The notes under the pieces are model-generated. The model had not been told where the DNA came from. It worked only from the letters and a program-made list of their open reading frames with translations, and ran no database searches. 64,000 bases of DNA from Brachyspira pilosicoli P43/6/78 (GTDB taxonomy: Bacteria; Spirochaetota; Brachyspiria; Brachyspirales; Brachyspiraceae), in contig NC_019908.1 of NCBI RefSeq assembly GCF_000325665.1, forward strand, positions 1,612,001-1,676,000, written 5' to 3'. The first letter of the stretch is position 1; every line of letters begins with the position of its first letter. Below, piece by piece: positions 44,710 through 57,313 of the stretch. The position numbers and the translations under genes are program-made.

Positions 44710-46072
44710 TTAATTCCCAAAAATAAAATCCATAAAACTATTATCTTCTTCAATTTTTTCATCATCTTCTGCATCTTCCATTCCAAAGCTTATTAAACTT
44801 GATAAAGCATCTGGAAAATCCAAATAACTAAAAACATCTCCTTTAATATTGTTTACAGAATCATCAAAATTAAGTAATTGACGAAGAGCTATATATCCGC
44901 GTCCATTATTTGTTTGAAGCCATTTATCTGTATCAGAGCCTTCAGGTACTTCCTGCCAGCCAATAGGAAAATATACTCTCTCATATATAACATAACTTGC
45001 ATTTACTATTCTCTCTATTTTATTTTTATGAACAAAAAACGGCGTTACTTCAAAATGTTTCTCAAGTCTTTTTACTAATTCCTTTTGAGCAAAATTACTT
45101 TCGCATAATATTTTTTTCTACGTTTCTGCTTACTAAAAAATTTGTGATGCTTTCATCTGTTGTTGTGTTTGAATCATTACGCATAAGTCCGCTGTCTATC
45201 AAATAAATATTATTATCTATTTGTGTGTAGACTATAACAGAAGTAAAACAATTATACTCTCCAAATGCGGGGTCAACTATTGCTTTATGCTCATTAGAAT
45301 ATATTTTATCTTTTTCTTTATTTTCATCATAGAACTTTAATTTTGAATACAAAAAAACTTTTCCATGTTTACTTTTAATTTTTCCAAGCCATATATGTTC
45401 ATACATCTTTGGCATAAGTTTTAATGTGGATAATCTTGATTTATTTAATATGTCGCTAAAATAATAATTGCCGTCATAGTTAATAAAAGTAATTAATATA
45501 TTAGCATCTTCATATTCTTTATAATAATACTCTTTGTTTGTTTTATCTCTATAAACCTTATTATCTAAATTAAATTGACTTACAACCCTATAAATAAAAT
45601 CAGTTTCAAAGCGAGGATTAAATGCAAGCCATATTTCACTTTTATCAGCCCTTATTGAAGGCTCTAATATTTCGTAACTTCTTTGTGTGAGAGTTTGAGC
45701 TTCTTCTATAAAACATATTCTTACATTGTAAATAGATTTAATTTCCTCTATAGAACATTCTCTAATACCTAAAAATATAAACTTAGAGTTTGTAATTTTG
45801 TTTATTATCTCATTTCTTTTTACTACAAAAAACTCATTTAAATTAAGTTCTTTTATAATGCTTATAAGAAGAGGATAAGTGGAATAAGAAATAGATTTTT
45901 GAATCTCTCTCGCACATAATATTACTCCATTAATTTCAAAACTTTTAGCTATTAAGATTCTTGCAATAGATTCACTTTTTCCGCCTCCTCGTCCGCCGAA
46001 TGCTATTTTTAATCGTTTTTCAGTGTTAATCCATTTTTCAAAAGGTTTTAAAATGTTTATATTAATATTCAT
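44710..46072 (-). pseudogene. Phage terminase large subunit, frameshifted near the nuclease domain
   Basis: Start at the ATG at 46072 (MNININILKPFEKWINT); a longer 5' frame runs into repeat C5 and is not credible. ATPase domain: Walker A FGGRGGGKSESIARIL, Walker B ICFIEEAQTL, and AFNPRFETDFIY. The nuclease domain begins AIVDPAFGEYNCFTSVIVY. The frame stops at 45095 after NVEKNIMRK. Reading the other frame past the seven-A run (45111-45117) continues KILCESNFAQKELVKRLEKH and WLQTNNGRGYIALRQLL to a stop at 44710, giving 453 residues once one A is removed. It packages phage DNA in intact phages; here it is almost certainly a relic. Confidence 0.82.
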
Positions 46073-46114
46073 AAATTTCTCAAAGGTGTAAAAATTATAA
46101 GTAATCTTATCCGC

Positions 46115-46196
46115 ACGCACGGTGTGAATATAAAAAATATAAAAACAGTTATTAATCAAAATTATTTTTATTTATAGAGTATACTTACCGTGCGTT
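46115..46196. repeat. MITE-like repeat C, copy 5 (82 bp)
   Basis: acgcacggtgtgaatat ... cttaccgtgcgtt; ends inverted, AT-rich interior. Located between the two terminase genes, just upstream of the large-subunit start. Confidence 0.85.
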
Positions 46197-46282
46197 AATA
46201 AATGATTATTTTTGAAATATTAAAAAATAAATTTTATTTCGTATATTTTAAAACATATGTTATTTATCAGAATAGTTTTTTA

Positions 46283-46754
46283 TTAATTATCAAACCCTAC
46301 TCTTATATTGATTTTATTATTATTTTCTTTTTCTTCTATCTTTTTTCTTATATATTCTAGCCTTTTATCATTACGCTTTTTTAGTAACTCAAAAAATACT
46401 ATCATTGCTCTTTCACTTGGAGGATTATATTTATATACTATTTTTTTTGTTTTAGACTCATTTCCGTCTTTATCTATTTTTCTTTCTTTTATAATATCTT
46501 TACTATAATAGCCTAATGACTTTTTTATTAATGCATTTTCTATTTTTGTTTTTGCATCTAAAAAATATTCGTCTTTTGCTTTCCTAATTTTTCTTACTAG
46601 AGTTTTTTTATTTTTTTTACTAGATTTATTAATATAGCTTTTTAATTTTATCATAGCTTATATTTAATTCTTTAGATACTTCTTCGATTGTTGGGTTAGT
46701 TTTTTTATAAAATTATATATTTCATTTTCTTATTTTTTTGCTGTATTTATTCAT
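46283..46754 (-). pseudogene. Phage terminase small-subunit-like gene, multiply frameshifted
   Basis: A clean 123-residue frame ends at 46283 (ENALIKKSLGYYSKDIIKER, NPPSERAMIVFFELLKKR). Upstream, other frames give MNKYSKKIRNEIYNF and NPTIEEVSKELNISYDK, the helix-turn-helix expected at the N-terminus of a small terminase. A 156-residue protein results only if three single-base changes in A-runs (near 46725-46728, 46701-46706 and 46639-46643) are allowed. Gene order before the large subunit supports the call. Likely decayed prophage DNA, though poor base calling is not excluded. Confidence 0.6.
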
Positions 46755-49353: not shown

Positions 49354-49460
49354 AATAAATATTCCTCAAATATAGTTTTAGCCTTATTACAAATTCGGAA
49401 TTCGTATATATAATATTGAATGCTTGATACAAAAAACTTGATTAAACTTATAATTTATTC

Positions 49461-49543
49461 ACCGCACGGTAAGCAGGTTATTAGTTATAACATAAATGCA
49501 ATTATTAGATGTTATATATTTTTTAATTTTATTCTGCGTGCGG
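49461..49543. repeat. MITE-like repeat C, copy 6 (83 bp)
   Basis: accgcacggtaagcagg ... ttctgcgtgcggg. Followed 27 bases later by repeat D; same composite arrangement as 19382-19585. Confidence 0.85.
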
Positions 49544-49570
49544 GAAGTAAGATTAAAAAAGTTAAAGCGA

Positions 49571-49661
49571 ACTTGGGCGGGCGTTAACATTTCTTATTAA
49601 ACAACAAAAAATATAAGACTAAAAAGTTCAAACAAAATCATAAAATCTAAAGGGCGGGGAG
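49571..49661. repeat. Repeat D, copy 3
   Basis: acttgggcgggcgttaac ... aaagggcggggagtgag with AT-rich interior. Together with C6 it accounts for half of the 412-base gap upstream of the HARE-HTH gene; the remainder shows no other structure. Confidence 0.8.
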
Positions 49662-49765
49662 TGAGAAAAAATTTTTAAATATATTTAATGTCTAAATTGT
49701 ACAAAATTTTATAGAGTTTTTACAAAAATAGTGTATTATTAGTATATAAGTTTTAGGAGTTAGCT

Positions 49766-50725
49766 ATGACATATTATGATGCAGCAAAAAAAGTTTTAGA
49801 GCAAAGCGATGTTCCTATGAAAGTTGATGAAATATGGGAGAAGGCTTGCGAACTAGGTTATGATAAAATTATAGCTGAAACATTAAACGGTAAAATGAGT
49901 AAAACTCCTATTGCAAGTTTAGGAGCAAAAATATATACAGATATAAAATTTAATCCAGATACTACAATCTTTACTAAAGTTGGTAAAGGTAAATTTTTAT
50001 TAAAAAGCAAAATAAATAGCTCTAATCAAAATTTAATAAATGAAATTAATGATTTAAGCGAAGAAGAAGATACAGAAGAAAGTTCAGAAAATACAATTAC
50101 AAATAAAAAAATATTAGAAGAAGATTTGCATATACCTCTCACAAAATATTTGTACTCAATGAAAATATATTCTAAAACTATAAATGCCAATGCTACAGAT
50201 ATTAACTTAAAAGGAAAAATGAAATGGGGCACTCCAGATATTGTATCTGTTACTTTTAAAGATTATATTAATAAATCAGTTTTAGAATTATTTAATCATA
50301 TAAACCTGCCAACTACAGAAATTTACGCTTATGAATTAAAATTAAAACTCACACTTGGAACTTTAACTGAATATTATTTTCAAGCATTATCAAATTCAGG
50401 CTGGGCTAATGAAGCTTGGCTTGTTGCTATGGAAATAGATGAAAATAACTATGATGAATTAATGGAAGAAATAAAAAGATTAAATCAGTCTTTTGGTGTA
50501 GGTATAATAAAATTAAATTATTATAATCCTGAAGATTCAGAAATATTATTTTCAGCTAAAAAAAGAAATAATTTAGATATAGACACTATGCATAAGCTTT
50601 GCTATAACAGACAGTTTCAAGATTTTATTAATGATGTTAATGAAATATTGGAAGCTAAAGATAAATCAAAAAATCATATAATATCAAGTTTGATAAATAG
50701 TAAAAGATTTAATAACCCTAATTGA
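49766..50725 (+). CDS. HARE-HTH domain fused to PD-(D/E)XK-like nuclease domain (COG2958-like)
   Basis: 319 residues. N-terminal HARE-HTH winged-helix domain (1-75): MTYYDAAKKVLEQSDVPMKV, then ASLGAKIYTDIKFNPD and FTKVGKGKFLL. Acidic linker (about 85-115). C-terminal domain starts EEDLHIPLTKYLY and holds a nuclease-type pair: TPDIVSV (catalytic Asp) and about 35 residues later IYAYELKLKL (Glu-x-Lys), followed by YYFQALSNSGWANEAWLVA, a conserved block of this family. HARE-HTH domains are linked to restriction and modified-DNA recognition. No methyltransferase is adjacent, so it may be a stand-alone defence or DNA-repair nuclease. AGGAG ribosome site. Activity is an inference. Confidence 0.78.
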   Translation: MTYYDAAKKVLEQSDVPMKVDEIWEKACELGYDKIIAETLNGKMSKTPIASLGAKIYTDIKFNPDTTIFTKVGKGKFLLKSKINSSNQNLINEINDLSEEEDTEESSENTITNKKILEEDLHIPLTKYLYSMKIYSKTINANATDINLKGKMKWGTPDIVSVTFKDYINKSVLELFNHINLPTTEIYAYELKLKLTLGTLTEYYFQALSNSGWANEAWLVAMEIDENNYDELMEEIKRLNQSFGVGIIKLNYYNPEDSEILFSAKKRNNLDIDTMHKLCYNRQFQDFINDVNEILEAKDKSKNHIISSLINSKRFNNPN

Positions 50726-50796: not shown

Positions 50797-51375
50797 TTAG
50801 TTTTTATTATTATAAAATTCTTTTAGTTTTATCCATATAGAGTTTAATTTCTTTTGCATAATAATATCAGGAATAAGCAGCATAGCAGTAATTACTAGAA
50901 CAATAGCAATAACTGCTAATATAGTACCAGCAAATACTAATAATACTTCAGGAGCATGGGAAATAGATTCAATTAAAGTGTAATTATTATAAGCTCCTCC
51001 GTAAAGTACCGACATACCGCTTACAAATACTCCCATAACAAAAGCAAGTATTAATCCACCTATAATTGGCATACCCACAAATAATACAATAATAAATGAA
51101 ACCATAATTATTTGAGTAACATTATTTTTATCTTTTTCATCAATTTTTAAAGCTATTTCTTTATAAATAATATTTCCGTATTTATTATACCAATATATGC
51201 TATAGATATTGCATGTTAAAATACTAAGTAGAAGTTCTAATTCAGGAGATATGTCTTTTCTACTAGTAAATTTTTTAACTTCTAAGCTAACATTGTAAAT
51301 CCAATAGTAATGATATATACCGCAAGTAATAAAGTTTAAAAGAAACATTATAGGAATAGACCTTATAATATTCAT
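50797..51375 (-). CDS. DUF4234 family membrane protein, long form
   Basis: 192 residues, four to five TM helices. Two DUF4234 patterns in the N-terminal half (LLNFITCGIYHYYWIYN and LSILTCNIYSIYWYNKYG), matching the 121-residue protein at 19703-20068, followed by two extra hydrophobic helices (about 92-120 and 145-172) and a basic tail. Function unknown. It begins 28 bases after the SH3-type gene on the same strand, so probably one transcript. Confidence 0.78.
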   Translation of the reverse strand: MNIIRSIPIMFLLNFITCGIYHYYWIYNVSLEVKKFTSRKDISPELELLLSILTCNIYSIYWYNKYGNIIYKEIALKIDEKDKNNVTQIIMVSFIIVLFVGMPIIGGLILAFVMGVFVSGMSVLYGGAYNNYTLIESISHAPEVLLVFAGTILAVIAIVLVITAMLLIPDIIMQKKLNSIWIKLKEFYNNKN

Positions 51376-51403
51376 ATTGTTATCCTATTATTGTTATGCT
51401 CTT

Positions 51404-52273
51404 TTAATAGCCTCCATTTTCAAGTTTTATCTGCGAACCATGCACAAAGCCATGAATTGCATCTTTTCCGTCTTCAGCCTCTGGAGGAAGATAAAATACT
51501 TCAAGCCACTTTGTTTCGATATCTTGATAATTCTCATAATCAATACCTTCTCCATTGATAGATAATAAAACTCCCCCATTATAAATCATATCTCTTTTCA
51601 AAATCTTTCCTATTATTTTTCCATTTGCTTTATCTCTTATATTCACATAATTGTCTTGAGAATTATATTGAAGTTCGTTGTAATGAACATCTCCTGAATT
51701 ATAATTATTTTTACTAAAATACTCTGTTTCTACATCACCTAAAGCCTTAAAACCTACAATATCACCGTAAGCCTCTCTAGATGCTTCACCTTCTCCATAA
51801 AAACGATAATTTCTAATTGTAACTTCAGCTCTTACAGCAGCAGCACCTAAAAATCTTTTATTCAAAGGTTCTGGTAATTTTACTTCAATATTTTTTAATA
51901 AAACACCGAATTCCAATCTGTCAAATTTAACGCCGCTAAAATCCCAAGAATCACCATATTTAGAAGCCCCTTGATTTTTCAAATTCATTTCAAATGAAGC
52001 ATATAAAAAAGGAAGATCTACATTATTATCAGGATAAAATCTTAAAGCAGTATAATTATTTCCCATATCATAATTATCAGATCTTTCAAGAACTCCTGTT
52101 AATGTAATCTCTCCATCAAAATAAACCATACCATAACTTTCTACATTATAGGCTTTAAGTGTATTTTTTGTCACTTTACCATTATCACTTAAAAGTTCAG
52201 AAAAATACGCTTCACTAGGTGGAAATGCCCATAAAAAATTAATGCTTAAAAGAAATAAAATAATTTTTTTCAT
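51404..52273 (-). CDS. Exported protein with C-terminal SH3-like domain
   Basis: 289 residues. Signal peptide (ILFLLSINFLWA, cleavage before FPPSE). Middle region is beta-rich and unrecognised. The last ~90 residues look like a bacterial SH3 domain: NYVNIRDKANGKIIGKIL, then ETKWLEVFYLPPE and IHGFVHGSQI. Bacterial SH3 domains bind peptidoglycan or proteins, so a periplasmic or surface role is likely. Ribosome site TAGGAG. Confidence 0.75.
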   Translation of the reverse strand: MKKIILFLLSINFLWAFPPSEAYFSELLSDNGKVTKNTLKAYNVESYGMVYFDGEITLTGVLERSDNYDMGNNYTALRFYPDNNVDLPFLYASFEMNLKNQGASKYGDSWDFSGVKFDRLEFGVLLKNIEVKLPEPLNKRFLGAAAVRAEVTIRNYRFYGEGEASREAYGDIVGFKALGDVETEYFSKNNYNSGDVHYNELQYNSQDNYVNIRDKANGKIIGKILKRDMIYNGGVLLSINGEGIDYENYQDIETKWLEVFYLPPEAEDGKDAIHGFVHGSQIKLENGGY

Positions 52274-52456
52274 TGTAATAACTCCTATTATTGCTATGCC
52301 ACCCGTAATGGTGTATTACCTACATTTTTTTATTATATATAAAAAACTTATTTGTTACTACATTCATAAGTTTTTTATTAATTCTATGTAGTTTTAATTT
52401 TTTATTATCATTATATATAAATTAAAACATAAATATTACAATTTATAAAACATTCA

Positions 52457-53485
52457 CTATTTTACTATTTTATAACCGTACTCCTTTGCCATATCATTAG
52501 CTGTTTTTCCTTTTTTATTTTTTATATTAACATCAGGATTTAATTTTAATATCTCATTTATAAGAGGTTCATTGCGAAGTTCTATAGCATACATTAATAA
52601 AGTATTTCCCTTATTATCCTGAGCATTAATATCGGCACCATTAGATACTAATAACTTTATAAGTCTAATAGCCCTATCTGTCTCTTCCATTTTCTTCTGA
52701 TTCATATAATCTTTTATATAGTCTGTTTTAGCATGATCTCCAAACATATCTTCCGTCATTGCCTTAACATTCTCTAAAACACCAAAAGATGATATTGTAT
52801 GAAATAAAGCTGTTTTTCCTTCATTATCTTTTATATTAATATCTGCATTTTCTGATAAACATATATCTATTATTTGTACTTTATCAGTTTGAACAGCAAA
52901 CATCAATGTAGTAACACCTTCATTATCTTGAGCATTAATATCAGCACCTTTTTCAAGTAAAAACTTTACATGTTCTTGATTTTCATAAGCTAAAGAATGC
53001 TGTATTAAAGGAGTTCTTCCAGATTTATTTTTTTTATTTATATCTGCACCATGTTGAAGGAAATAATTAACGGTTTCCTTTTTTCTAGTAAAAAAGAAAA
53101 CATTAGAACCATAATTATCTGACACATTAAAATCAGGATTATATTTTTCAAATAGTTTTAAGATTTCAAGTTCATCTAAAACAGCAGCCCAGAAAAATGC
53201 ATTTCTTCCCTTATTATCTTTTATTTTAATAACATCTGCATTATGCTCTAATAAAATTTTAACAACCTCTATTTCTCCTTCTGTTACAGCATTCATTAAA
53301 GGAGTAAATCCGTCTTCTTCATCTTGAACATTAATATTAACTTTATCAATTAATTCTTCAATTACATACATTTGACCATAACGGCATGCATGAAGAAAAT
53401 TTCTTTCATCTTGAGTTATACCATAAGAATCATTGACCATTAAAACTACTCCAACAATAATTAACACAATATATTTTTTTAGCAT
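52457..53485 (-). CDS. Secreted ankyrin-repeat protein
   Basis: 342 residues from the ATG at 53485 (AGGAA upstream), which gives the signal peptide LKKYIVLIIVGVVLMVNDSYG; the frame is open further upstream. Eight or nine ankyrin repeats follow, for example GFTPLMNAVTEGEIEVVKIL, GRTPLIQHSLAYENQEHVKF and GVTTLMFAVQTDKVQIIDIC, with one longer insertion (about 235-270) that interrupts the array. Ends KGKTANDMAKEYGYKIVK. Periplasmic or surface protein-binding role likely; partners unknown. The TRKKET segment also occurs near the end of the next ankyrin protein, suggesting shared ancestry. Confidence 0.9.
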   Translation of the reverse strand: MLKKYIVLIIVGVVLMVNDSYGITQDERNFLHACRYGQMYVIEELIDKVNINVQDEEDGFTPLMNAVTEGEIEVVKILLEHNADVIKIKDNKGRNAFFWAAVLDELEILKLFEKYNPDFNVSDNYGSNVFFFTRKKETVNYFLQHGADINKKNKSGRTPLIQHSLAYENQEHVKFLLEKGADINAQDNEGVTTLMFAVQTDKVQIIDICLSENADINIKDNEGKTALFHTISSFGVLENVKAMTEDMFGDHAKTDYIKDYMNQKKMEETDRAIRLIKLLVSNGADINAQDNKGNTLLMYAIELRNEPLINEILKLNPDVNIKNKKGKTANDMAKEYGYKIVK

Positions 53486-53666
53486 TTTAGTTCCTATTAT
53501 TACTAATAAAAATTGTTCGCTAATCAAACTCTATCAAATAAATTTGCTAGAGGCTCACAATTTTTATAAATTATATTTTATTATTACTATATATGAAATG
53601 ATATACTTTTATATCATTGCTATTCCGCAAGTAATAGTGCCTTGCAAAACGTTAAGCGACAATATA

Positions 53667-55147: not shown

Positions 55148-57313
55148 TTGAATAATAAAAACAAAAAAATAGAACTGCTCGCACCTGTTGGCGATGAAAG
55201 GGGGTTAAAGGCTGCTGTTAATGCGGGGGCTGATGCTGTATATTTCGGTACTAAAAGTTTTAATGCGAGAGTTGGTGCGGCTGAAAACTTCGATGAAAAG
55301 ACACTTGAAGAAAATATAAAGTTTGCAAAATTAAGAAATGTGAATGTTTATATTACAGTTAATACTTTAGTTTATAATGATGAAATTGATAAAGTACTTC
55401 CATTAATAAAAACTGTTTCTGATTTAGGAGCCGATGCTATTATAGTTCAAGACTTAGGTATTATTGATATTGTTAGAAATAATTTAAATATTGCCATGCA
55501 TGCAAGCACGCAGATGTCTTGTAATAATTTAGATAGTGTAAAACTTCTTAAAAGCATTGGTATTGACAGAGTTGTTCTAGCACGTGAAATGAGTTTAGAG
55601 AATATAAAATATATTAGAGATAACACAGACATAGAACTTGAAACTTTTGTGCATGGAGCTTTATGCGTAAGTTTTTCTGGTCAATGTGCTTATTCTTATT
55701 TGCATGGAGGAAGGAGCGCAAACAGAGGTGCATGTGCACAGCCTTGCAGAATGGAATATACTGGAGGAAAAACTGATTATCCTCTAAGCACTAAAGATTT
55801 AATGACTATTGATATAATTCCAAACTTACTTGAAAGCGGAATAACTTCTTTTAAAATAGAAGGACGTGCTAAAAGAAGTGAATATGTTGCAGTTACTACT
55901 TCGATATATAGACATGCCATCGATTTGGCTTTAGAAAATAAAGATATACCTATCCAGAAATATAGAGAAAGTTTGATGAAGATTTTTAATAGAGGCGGAT
56001 TTTCTCAAGGGTATTATTATAATTCAAAAGATATTTTTGAAAATTATAAGCCTAGTCATGACGGTGAATATATAGGAGAAGTTGTAGCATACAAAAAAAA
56101 TAAAATACATATAAAAGCAGAAAAAGAATTAAATGTTTATGATGGGCTTTCATTTGGAGATAGCGGACAGGTAGGAATGCAGATTTCTGATTTATATAAA
56201 GATAATATTAGAGTAAAAAGAGCTAAAGGAAATTTAAGTTTTTCGGCTGTTATAAAAAATGTAAATGTAGGTGATGAAGTTTATAGAACTACTGATAAAT
56301 TACAAATGGACGAAGCAGAGAAAATAATTGAAAGTGATAATTTTAAGCATTTGCTTGATTTAAATTGTATTATTGGATTTAATGACATTGATGATAATAA
56401 AAAAATAAAATTAGTAGTTCATAGCAAATATGATAAGAGACTAAATAATATAGAATATATTAGCGATTATACACTTCAAGAAGCTAAAACTAAAGCAACA
56501 ATTAAAGAAGATATTTTTAATTCTCTTTCAAAAACAGGAGGAACAGTATTTGAATTTGAAAATATTAATATAGAAGAAAAATTCAAAAATCCTTTTATAC
56601 CTGTTAAAATTTTAAATGAAGCTAGAAGATGCATAATTGAAAAATTAGAAAATGTTTTAATGCAGTCAAAAAAAATTGATTATAATAAAGATTTTGAAAA
56701 AAATATTAATTATCCAAACACAAATATAAAAGTTTTAATTGCTAACAGTGAAGAGAAAATTAATTTATATTCTGATATTCATTATGACAAAAAAATATTA
56801 TTTCCAAATGTTTATGATGAAAATATAATTAAGCTTTTTGAAAATAAAAAAATAGACGGAATAATTCTTCCTCATGTAACATTCGATAAAGACATTGAAG
56901 TGATAAAAAGCATAGTAGAAAAAACAAATAATATGATAGTAATATGCAATAACTTAGGTCATATTGAAGCATTAAAAGAAAAAGCTATATTATGGGCTGG
57001 CATTGGGCTTAATGCAATTAATAACTATACTGTAGACTTTTTATATAAATTAGGAGTTGATGTTGTTATATCAGCTATTGAAGCTGGTAAAAATTTAAAA
57101 CACACATTATCAATAAAAGAAGGTTTGATTCCTGCTATGAACTTTGCCTTCTGTCCAAAGAGTATGTCTGTAGGATGTTCTAAATGCAAAGAAGAAGATA
57201 TTATTGACCACAAAGGAAATATTGTAATATTTGATTGTGTGAAAATATATAACAAAACAAGCTTTATTTTAGAGAATATAAAAAATAAAACAGGCGAGAT
57301 TTATATAAAATAA
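55148..57313 (+). CDS. Peptidase U32 family protein with DUF3656-like region
   Basis: 721 residues starting at TTG 55148 (AGGAAA 7 bases upstream; no suitable ATG). N-terminal U32 barrel: IELLAPVGDERGLKAAVNAG and ADAVYFGTKSFNAR, then the Cys-rich signature VSFSGQCAYSYLHGGRSANR and GACAQPCRMEY, which suggests an Fe-S site. The middle holds the DUF3656 collagenase-associated segment and the C-terminus another U32-like half with CSKCKEED. Relatives such as RlhA and UbiU/V are now linked to RNA or quinone hydroxylation, so proteolysis is doubtful; closest function is probably rRNA or tRNA hydroxylation. Confidence 0.9.
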   Translation: MNNKNKKIELLAPVGDERGLKAAVNAGADAVYFGTKSFNARVGAAENFDEKTLEENIKFAKLRNVNVYITVNTLVYNDEIDKVLPLIKTVSDLGADAIIVQDLGIIDIVRNNLNIAMHASTQMSCNNLDSVKLLKSIGIDRVVLAREMSLENIKYIRDNTDIELETFVHGALCVSFSGQCAYSYLHGGRSANRGACAQPCRMEYTGGKTDYPLSTKDLMTIDIIPNLLESGITSFKIEGRAKRSEYVAVTTSIYRHAIDLALENKDIPIQKYRESLMKIFNRGGFSQGYYYNSKDIFENYKPSHDGEYIGEVVAYKKNKIHIKAEKELNVYDGLSFGDSGQVGMQISDLYKDNIRVKRAKGNLSFSAVIKNVNVGDEVYRTTDKLQMDEAEKIIESDNFKHLLDLNCIIGFNDIDDNKKIKLVVHSKYDKRLNNIEYISDYTLQEAKTKATIKEDIFNSLSKTGGTVFEFENINIEEKFKNPFIPVKILNEARRCIIEKLENVLMQSKKIDYNKDFEKNINYPNTNIKVLIANSEEKINLYSDIHYDKKILFPNVYDENIIKLFENKKIDGIILPHVTFDKDIEVIKSIVEKTNNMIVICNNLGHIEALKEKAILWAGIGLNAINNYTVDFLYKLGVDVVISAIEAGKNLKHTLSIKEGLIPAMNFAFCPKSMSVGCSKCKEEDIIDHKGNIVIFDCVKIYNKTSFILENIKNKTGEIYIK

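Follow-up and report, generated by a model that had tools for sequence, protein, structure and literature searches.

The window, a 64,000-nucleotide stretch of the 2,555,556-base genome of Brachyspira pilosicoli P43/6/78, encodes a 319-residue protein that homology places in the known HrgA family, with an architecture that is already known. Its gene occupies a chromosomal slot in which, judging from alignments across the genus, hrgA and an unrelated gene for a GmrSD-type (type IV-like) enzyme have been swapped repeatedly, and cleanly at the start codon, behind a fixed promoter. The best explanation, and on balance a probable one, is that the product is an HrgA-family endonuclease that is stand-alone, type IV-like, and swapped in and out of this fixed-promoter slot. 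The N-terminal HARE-HTH winged helix would bind DNA and probably sense base modification, and the PD-(D/E)XK domain would cut the strands, with E118, D158, E190, K192, and Q206 arranged around a divalent metal. The window HrgA may work alone, restricting phage and other incoming DNA in a modification-dependent way, and hrgA would be one of several interchangeable Brachyspira defense genes served by one promoter and ribosome-binding site.

Architecture and predicted fold of the HrgA-like protein

The open reading frame singled out in an earlier sequence-only reading was recovered at exactly the same coordinates (Table 1), and the HARE-HTH N terminus proposed for it scores 50.1 bits against a Pfam cut-off of 25.9. 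The predicted model of this domain contains wing strands at residues 69-72 and 76-79 in addition to helices; a match to TIGR04567, the RNA polymerase delta domain, fell below the cut-off. For the C-terminal half, no family model was found in Pfam, NCBIfam, PADLOC, or PHROG, and PADLOC 2.0.0, which holds no HrgA model, gave zero matches for the window protein or five relatives. Purifying selection acts on hrgA: across the 12 Brachyspira copies compared, pairwise dN/dS has a median of 0.17, with values of 0.14 in the catalytic part and 0.39 in the linker.

Table 1. Coordinates of hrgA and associated features in the window
Feature	Position	Strand	Remarks
hrgA-like gene	49766..50725	+	319 aa, from ATG to TGA; intact, with relatives of full length in Brachyspira
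HARE-HTH winged-helix domain, residues 1-80	49766..50005	+	Pfam PF05066, E 3.8e-13; predicted model
Variable acidic linker, residues 83-114	50012..50107	+	pLDDT <50 at 98-113; dN/dS 0.39
HrgA C-terminal domain with predicted PD-(D/E)XK core	50108..50722	+	Conservation, domain model, fold neighbors, HrgA homology
Codon E118	50117-50119	+	
Codon D158	50237-50239	+	
Codon E190	50333-50335	+	
Codon K192	50339-50341	+	
Codon Q206	50381-50383	+	
Upstream element with ribosome-binding site	49693..49765	+	Common to GmrSD genes in the same slot in other genomes
Degenerate dispersed intergenic repeat	49360..49690	.	Partial matches (66-88% identity) at 24 other places in the genome
Accessory block: DUF4234 protein, 289-aa protein, ankyrin protein	50797..53527	-	
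Peptidase U32 gene (named by eye)	about 55148..57313 (G000:C1:1667142-1669307)	+	Anchors the exchange region in Brachyspira

The motifs TPDIVSV (residues 156-162), YELK (189-192), and QALSNSGWANE (206-216), from which a nuclease had first been suspected, are all present, and their key residues are invariant or nearly so: D158, E190, K192, Q206, S209, N210, S211, and W213 are identical in all 68 aligned proteins, P157 is kept in 67, and E118, N-terminal to the motifs, in 66. AlphaFold2 models of the full protein (28-member alignment; pLDDT, 84.7) and of the catalytic domain alone (42-member alignment; pLDDT, 90.2; pTM, 0.87) predict a core running in the order helix 118-131, strands 134-138, 159-164, and 184-195, helix 197-209, and strand 216-224. 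In the model, D158 just precedes the second strand, E190-x-K192 lies in the third, and Q206 lies in the next helix. An alpha-beta-beta-beta-alpha-beta arrangement with an aspartate before strand 2 and (D/E)xK in strand 3 is the canonical PD-(D/E)XK core. Conservation and the two models thus uphold the earlier assignment of a PD-(D/E)XK-like domain, for which structure prediction had been proposed as the check, and on these predictions a nuclease core in the C-terminal domain is very likely.

Fold searches were less specific. Foldseek matches in the PDB were weak, with a best E value of 2.6e-3 for the full-length model and 0.078 for the isolated domain; the nearest folds were MmcB-like 3dnx, Cap4, SgrAI, PspGI, NucS-type 2vld, BsoBI, NucC, and MspJI. 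Restriction and defense nucleases with the PD-(D/E)XK fold made up much of the top of the list, and unrelated folds, e.g., APOBEC, scored similarly. Modeling the catalytic domain in isolation raised model confidence without improving the PDB E values. Matches in a viral structure library reached E values of 2e-6 to 1e-4, the best named ones being MmcB-like (2e-5 and 1e-4), and a PDB sequence search was uninformative, also when run with a profile of 14 members. Because the PDB fold matches are weak, the PD-(D/E)XK assignment rests on topology and motif.

The HrgA family and its distribution

Proteins of the HrgA type share approximately 27 to 35% identity with the C-terminal domain of the window protein over 34 to 61% of the protein (E values of 5e-16 to 4e-4). 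tblastn matches to proteins named HrgA were found in Helicobacter (8e-15), Vibrio (5e-12), and Proteus (9e-7), and annotated HrgA proteins of Helicobacter, Vibrio, Proteus, Shewanella, and Alteromonas align to residues ~115 to 304. The possibility of a new kind of protein was rejected, since the C-terminal half is homologous to these annotated proteins. According to PMC4615327 and PMC6563999, HrgA was described in literature of 2002 to 2003, and these two and PMC4687069 report that hrgA of Helicobacter pylori replaces the restriction gene hpyIIIR and that the Campylobacter jejuni homologue is cj1602. The gene still serves as a typing or risk marker, and the literature searched yielded no mechanism and no biochemical or phage data for HrgA.

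Full-length relatives of the window protein occur in Leptospira and Persicobacter, where they are annotated merely as HTH domain-containing, and 33 of 296 sampled genomes of the spirochaete phylum have a match. In addition, tblastn found matches in 25 plasmid records, and 62 copies were detected in viral contigs by a profile scan, which alone succeeded there: neither tblastn against phage records nor scanning viral contigs with a single sequence gave a homologue. The HARE-HTH domain was undetectable in the HrgA proteins of Helicobacter, Vibrio, and Proteus that were scanned. Some HrgA catalytic domains instead carry longer N-terminal parts of other kinds (L035 4287-5594; L047 5497-6684), which suggests exchange of sensing domains. 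One spirochaete genome outside Brachyspira (G043; loci L119 and L120) has an intact hrgA and a second, broken copy, a further case of decay.

The Brachyspira locus and its occupants

Intact hrgA is present in 13 of 26 Brachyspira genomes, among which G003 has a divergent relative with 40% identity; the gene is broken in G010 and reduced to 3' remnants in G002 and G009. Many intact copies sit between genes recognized by eye as thymidine kinase and peptidase U32. An unrelated locus for the window copy, whose thymidine kinase gene is ~122 kb away, was considered and rejected, as hrgA is followed 4.4 kb downstream by the U32 gene. In the U32 tree the nearest relative of the window genome is G012, whose hrgA locus matches a contig named B. 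pilosicoli T010. Neither the HrgA family name nor the role of the U32 gene as a marker of a region of defense gene exchange had featured in the sequence-only reading.

Where hrgA is absent from this region, a GmrSD gene may be found (G006, where it is split, and G009, G013, G014, G015, and G016), as may AbiL genes (G018) or a type IIG enzyme (G001). The GmrSD product contains GmrSD_N and GmrSD_C domains (Pfam) and has no profile match in common with the hrgA product. AbiL genes are also neighbors of hrgA in G010 and G012, and of GmrSD in G015. In the U32 region, the AbiLi/AbiLii genes (AAA ATPase plus DUF3226 TOPRIM) are intact in part of the genomes but look broken or truncated elsewhere (L107 12588-14170, L110, L131, and L132 8005-9471). 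No methyltransferase was seen beside 12 intact Brachyspira hrgA copies, a judgment made partly by eye.

The surroundings of the window copy agree with the accessory neighborhood that had been described for it, with ankyrin and lipoprotein-like genes on the flanks of hrgA. The trio of DUF4234, 289-aa, and ankyrin proteins adjoins hrgA or a GmrSD gene in G008, G010, and G015; this block, represented by loci L107, L132, and L196, has the opposite orientation in the window. The repeat noticed just upstream is confirmed as a degenerate, dispersed, intergenic element within the 406 bp 5' of the gene, with degenerate copies elsewhere in the genome. A candidate for the prophage debris nearby is a terminase-large-subunit-like ORF at 45095-46159 (recognized by eye rather than by profile) that, together with a small ORF upstream of it, spans 45095-46654, about 3 to 4 kb from hrgA.

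Exchange of hrgA and GmrSD at the start codon

Most Brachyspira genomes contain a single strong match to an element of ~65 bp that ends in a ribosome-binding site and is followed, in every case examined, by hrgA, GmrSD-a, or GmrSD-b. It is 90 to 94% identical before hrgA in G012 and before GmrSD in G011, G013, and G016. In pairwise alignments, flank identity runs to within ~6 nt of the ATG and then gives way to unrelated genes. Identity between G010 (hrgA) and G015 (GmrSD) is 92% upstream and 95% downstream; further exchange pairs are G004 and G007 (hrgA) versus G014 (GmrSD-a) and G004 versus G006 (GmrSD-b), and G020 (hrgA) versus G002 (GmrSD-a) records exchange at another place.

Four chromosomal contexts are each polymorphic for the two genes. 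On the thymidine kinase side (context 1), hrgA is found in G004, G005, G007, G021, G022, G023, and G025 and GmrSD in G006, G009, G014, G017, and G024. Context 2, with a radical-SAM-like gene on the other side, contains the broken hrgA of G010 and GmrSD in G008 and G015. The context of the window type (context 3) has hrgA in the window genome (G000) and G012 and GmrSD in G011, G013, and G016, and context 4 has hrgA in G020 and GmrSD in G002. Remnants of the hrgA 3' end behind GmrSD, comprising the last 169 codons in G009, 68 codons in G002, and ~20 nt in both G014 and G015 (the short ones being weaker evidence than the long ones), indicate that GmrSD replaced hrgA in these genomes. The GmrSD ORF of G015 (L132 2531-4906; 791 aa) exceeds its relatives in length by ~100 codons and continues into the hrgA remnant. 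In G004, G007, G021, G022, and G025, the hrgA stop codon is followed directly by the last 29 to 34 codons of AbiLii, so that hrgA seems to have taken the place of an AbiL pair there.

The two genes are nearly exclusive: 12 genomes have intact hrgA only, 12 have GmrSD only, G013 has both (in different places), and G010, with its broken hrgA, has neither (Fisher P = 3.3e-5 for 26 genomes, with kinship ignored). This count scores as GmrSD the partial gene of G024 and the genes of G018 and G001, which sit away from the U32 region, the G001 copy being broken. Mapped onto a tree of the U32 gene from 18 genomes, the hrgA/GmrSD label changes at least three times and most simply five times, although U32 is an imperfect species marker because it adjoins the slot in many of these genomes. 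Exchange with GmrSD behind one promoter is, as far as alignments reveal it, a new observation here; outside the original HrgA and HARE-HTH papers, neither this promoter-anchored exchange nor the nuclease assignment of the HrgA domain was found in the literature searched.

Lacking its methyltransferase, a type II nuclease would be lethal to the host, unlike a GmrSD-like enzyme. Interchangeability with GmrSD and the lack of an adjoining methyltransferase therefore suggest a stand-alone, modification-dependent enzyme as the best explanation, and a protein acting alone could come and go with no need of a partner methyltransferase. HARE-HTH domains have been proposed (PMC11037411, PMC10853773) to read modified, probably cytosine-modified, DNA, and we infer that the window HrgA most likely restricts modified DNA. 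The absence of a cognate methyltransferase that characterizes type IV enzymes fits the spirochaete and Persicobacter copies (judged partly by eye) but fails for gammaproteobacterial copies inside type I operons. A methyltransferase neighbor is also missing in Acinetobacter (PMC6563999), so that an adjoining methyltransferase is not a general feature of HrgA. A broader proposal, held tentatively, is that HrgA constitutes an unrecognized family of one-gene, type IV-like nucleases and that the Brachyspira promoter slot swaps the nonhomologous hrgA, two GmrSD classes, and, in some genomes, AbiL precisely at the start codon, leaving 3' remnants.

Defense context and alternative functions

Neighbors across bacteria and within Brachyspira favor the defense role initially suggested for the gene, and outside the genus they also bear on its main rival. 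HrgA may be an accessory subunit of restriction-modification (R-M) systems, above all type I, e.g., a nuclease finishing DNA stalled or cut by HsdR, with the Brachyspira copy partnering R-M enzymes encoded elsewhere. On plasmids of Proteus and Vibrio the genes run hsdM-hsdS-hrgA-hsdR, placing hrgA between hsdS and hsdR, and in Vibrio alginolyticus and Shewanella it lies beside or near hsdR. Among 50 neighboring proteins from viral contigs, mostly of at least 200 aa, were 6 HsdR, 4 Eco57I, and 3 N6-methylase domains (which may overlap), 3 Methylase_S, 2 GmrSD, 1 McrBC, 1 SMODS nucleotidyltransferase, and 1 patatin, type I R and S genes being the commonest defense neighbors. For the Helicobacter, Vibrio, and Proteus proteins, which have no detectable HARE-HTH and some of which are encoded inside type I operons, an accessory role fits equally well. 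Nevertheless, no R-M genes adjoin hrgA in spirochaetes or in Persicobacter, and the one-for-one replacement of hrgA by GmrSD, a stand-alone type of enzyme, argues against a subunit, which makes this role rather unlikely. HARE-HTH/REase fusions have also been linked to Dnd and BREX loci (PMC10853773, PMC12839542).

A DNA repair or recombination nuclease of the MmcB kind, for which defense would not be primary, is suggested by the best structural neighbors, which include MmcB-like proteins annotated as DNA repair. This role is improbable, as the patchy distribution, pseudogenes, relics, exchange with GmrSD, carriage by plasmids and prophages, and defense neighbors are unlike those of a housekeeping repair gene. 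Slightly less probable again is cargo of mobile elements that, by the same mechanism as in the best explanation, would defend its element from rival elements instead of protecting the host from phages; the viral-contig and plasmid copies and the terminase-like remnant 3.6 kb from hrgA in the window would fit, but the Brachyspira copies occupy fixed chromosomal slots beside core genes. The least probable of the four is a catalytically silent DNA-binding regulator that retains the nuclease fold: HARE-HTH and the RNA polymerase delta domain are related (the TIGR04567 match below cut-off), yet the expected catalytic residues are all kept in the 68 sequences, and a pure scaffold would need none.

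Comparison with known systems

For the HrgA family, the analysis adds a predicted nuclease core with named residues, a defense context that spans phyla, and a second instance of replacement, in which the partner is a stand-alone restriction enzyme. The Brachyspira slot provides a natural record of defense gene exchange behind a single promoter, and as one small gene is involved, HrgA function is directly testable.

HrgA of H. pylori and Cj1602 of C. jejuni resemble the Brachyspira protein in their homologous C-terminal domain and in the replacement of a restriction gene, but a clear HARE-HTH N terminus distinguishes the Brachyspira protein from the annotated HrgA proteins tested. Unlike the H. 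pylori locus, the Brachyspira slot has no methyltransferase (hpyIIIM), and the exchange partner is GmrSD rather than HpyIIIR. The HARE-HTH-REase fusions (PMC10853773, PMC12839542) share the same domain pairing, with a proposed reading of modified DNA and a PD-(D/E)XK nuclease; these papers do not name HrgA, and the Brachyspira gene has no Dnd or BREX neighbors. GmrSD/DUF262-DUF1524 type IV-like enzymes (PADLOC Orf5, HEC-06) occupy the identical promoter slot and are likewise one-gene defense nucleases, although their domains and their nuclease and sensing parts are different. MmcB-like proteins (3dnx and phage MmcB-like proteins) have the nearest predicted fold to the HrgA domain, but they are shorter, are annotated as DNA repair, and showed no significant sequence similarity to it. 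DpnI- and HhiV4I-like type IV enzymes (PMC11037411) also combine a winged helix and a nuclease in one chain; their winged helix reads 6mA, whereas HARE-HTH has an extra helix and has been suggested to read cytosine modification (PMC11037411).
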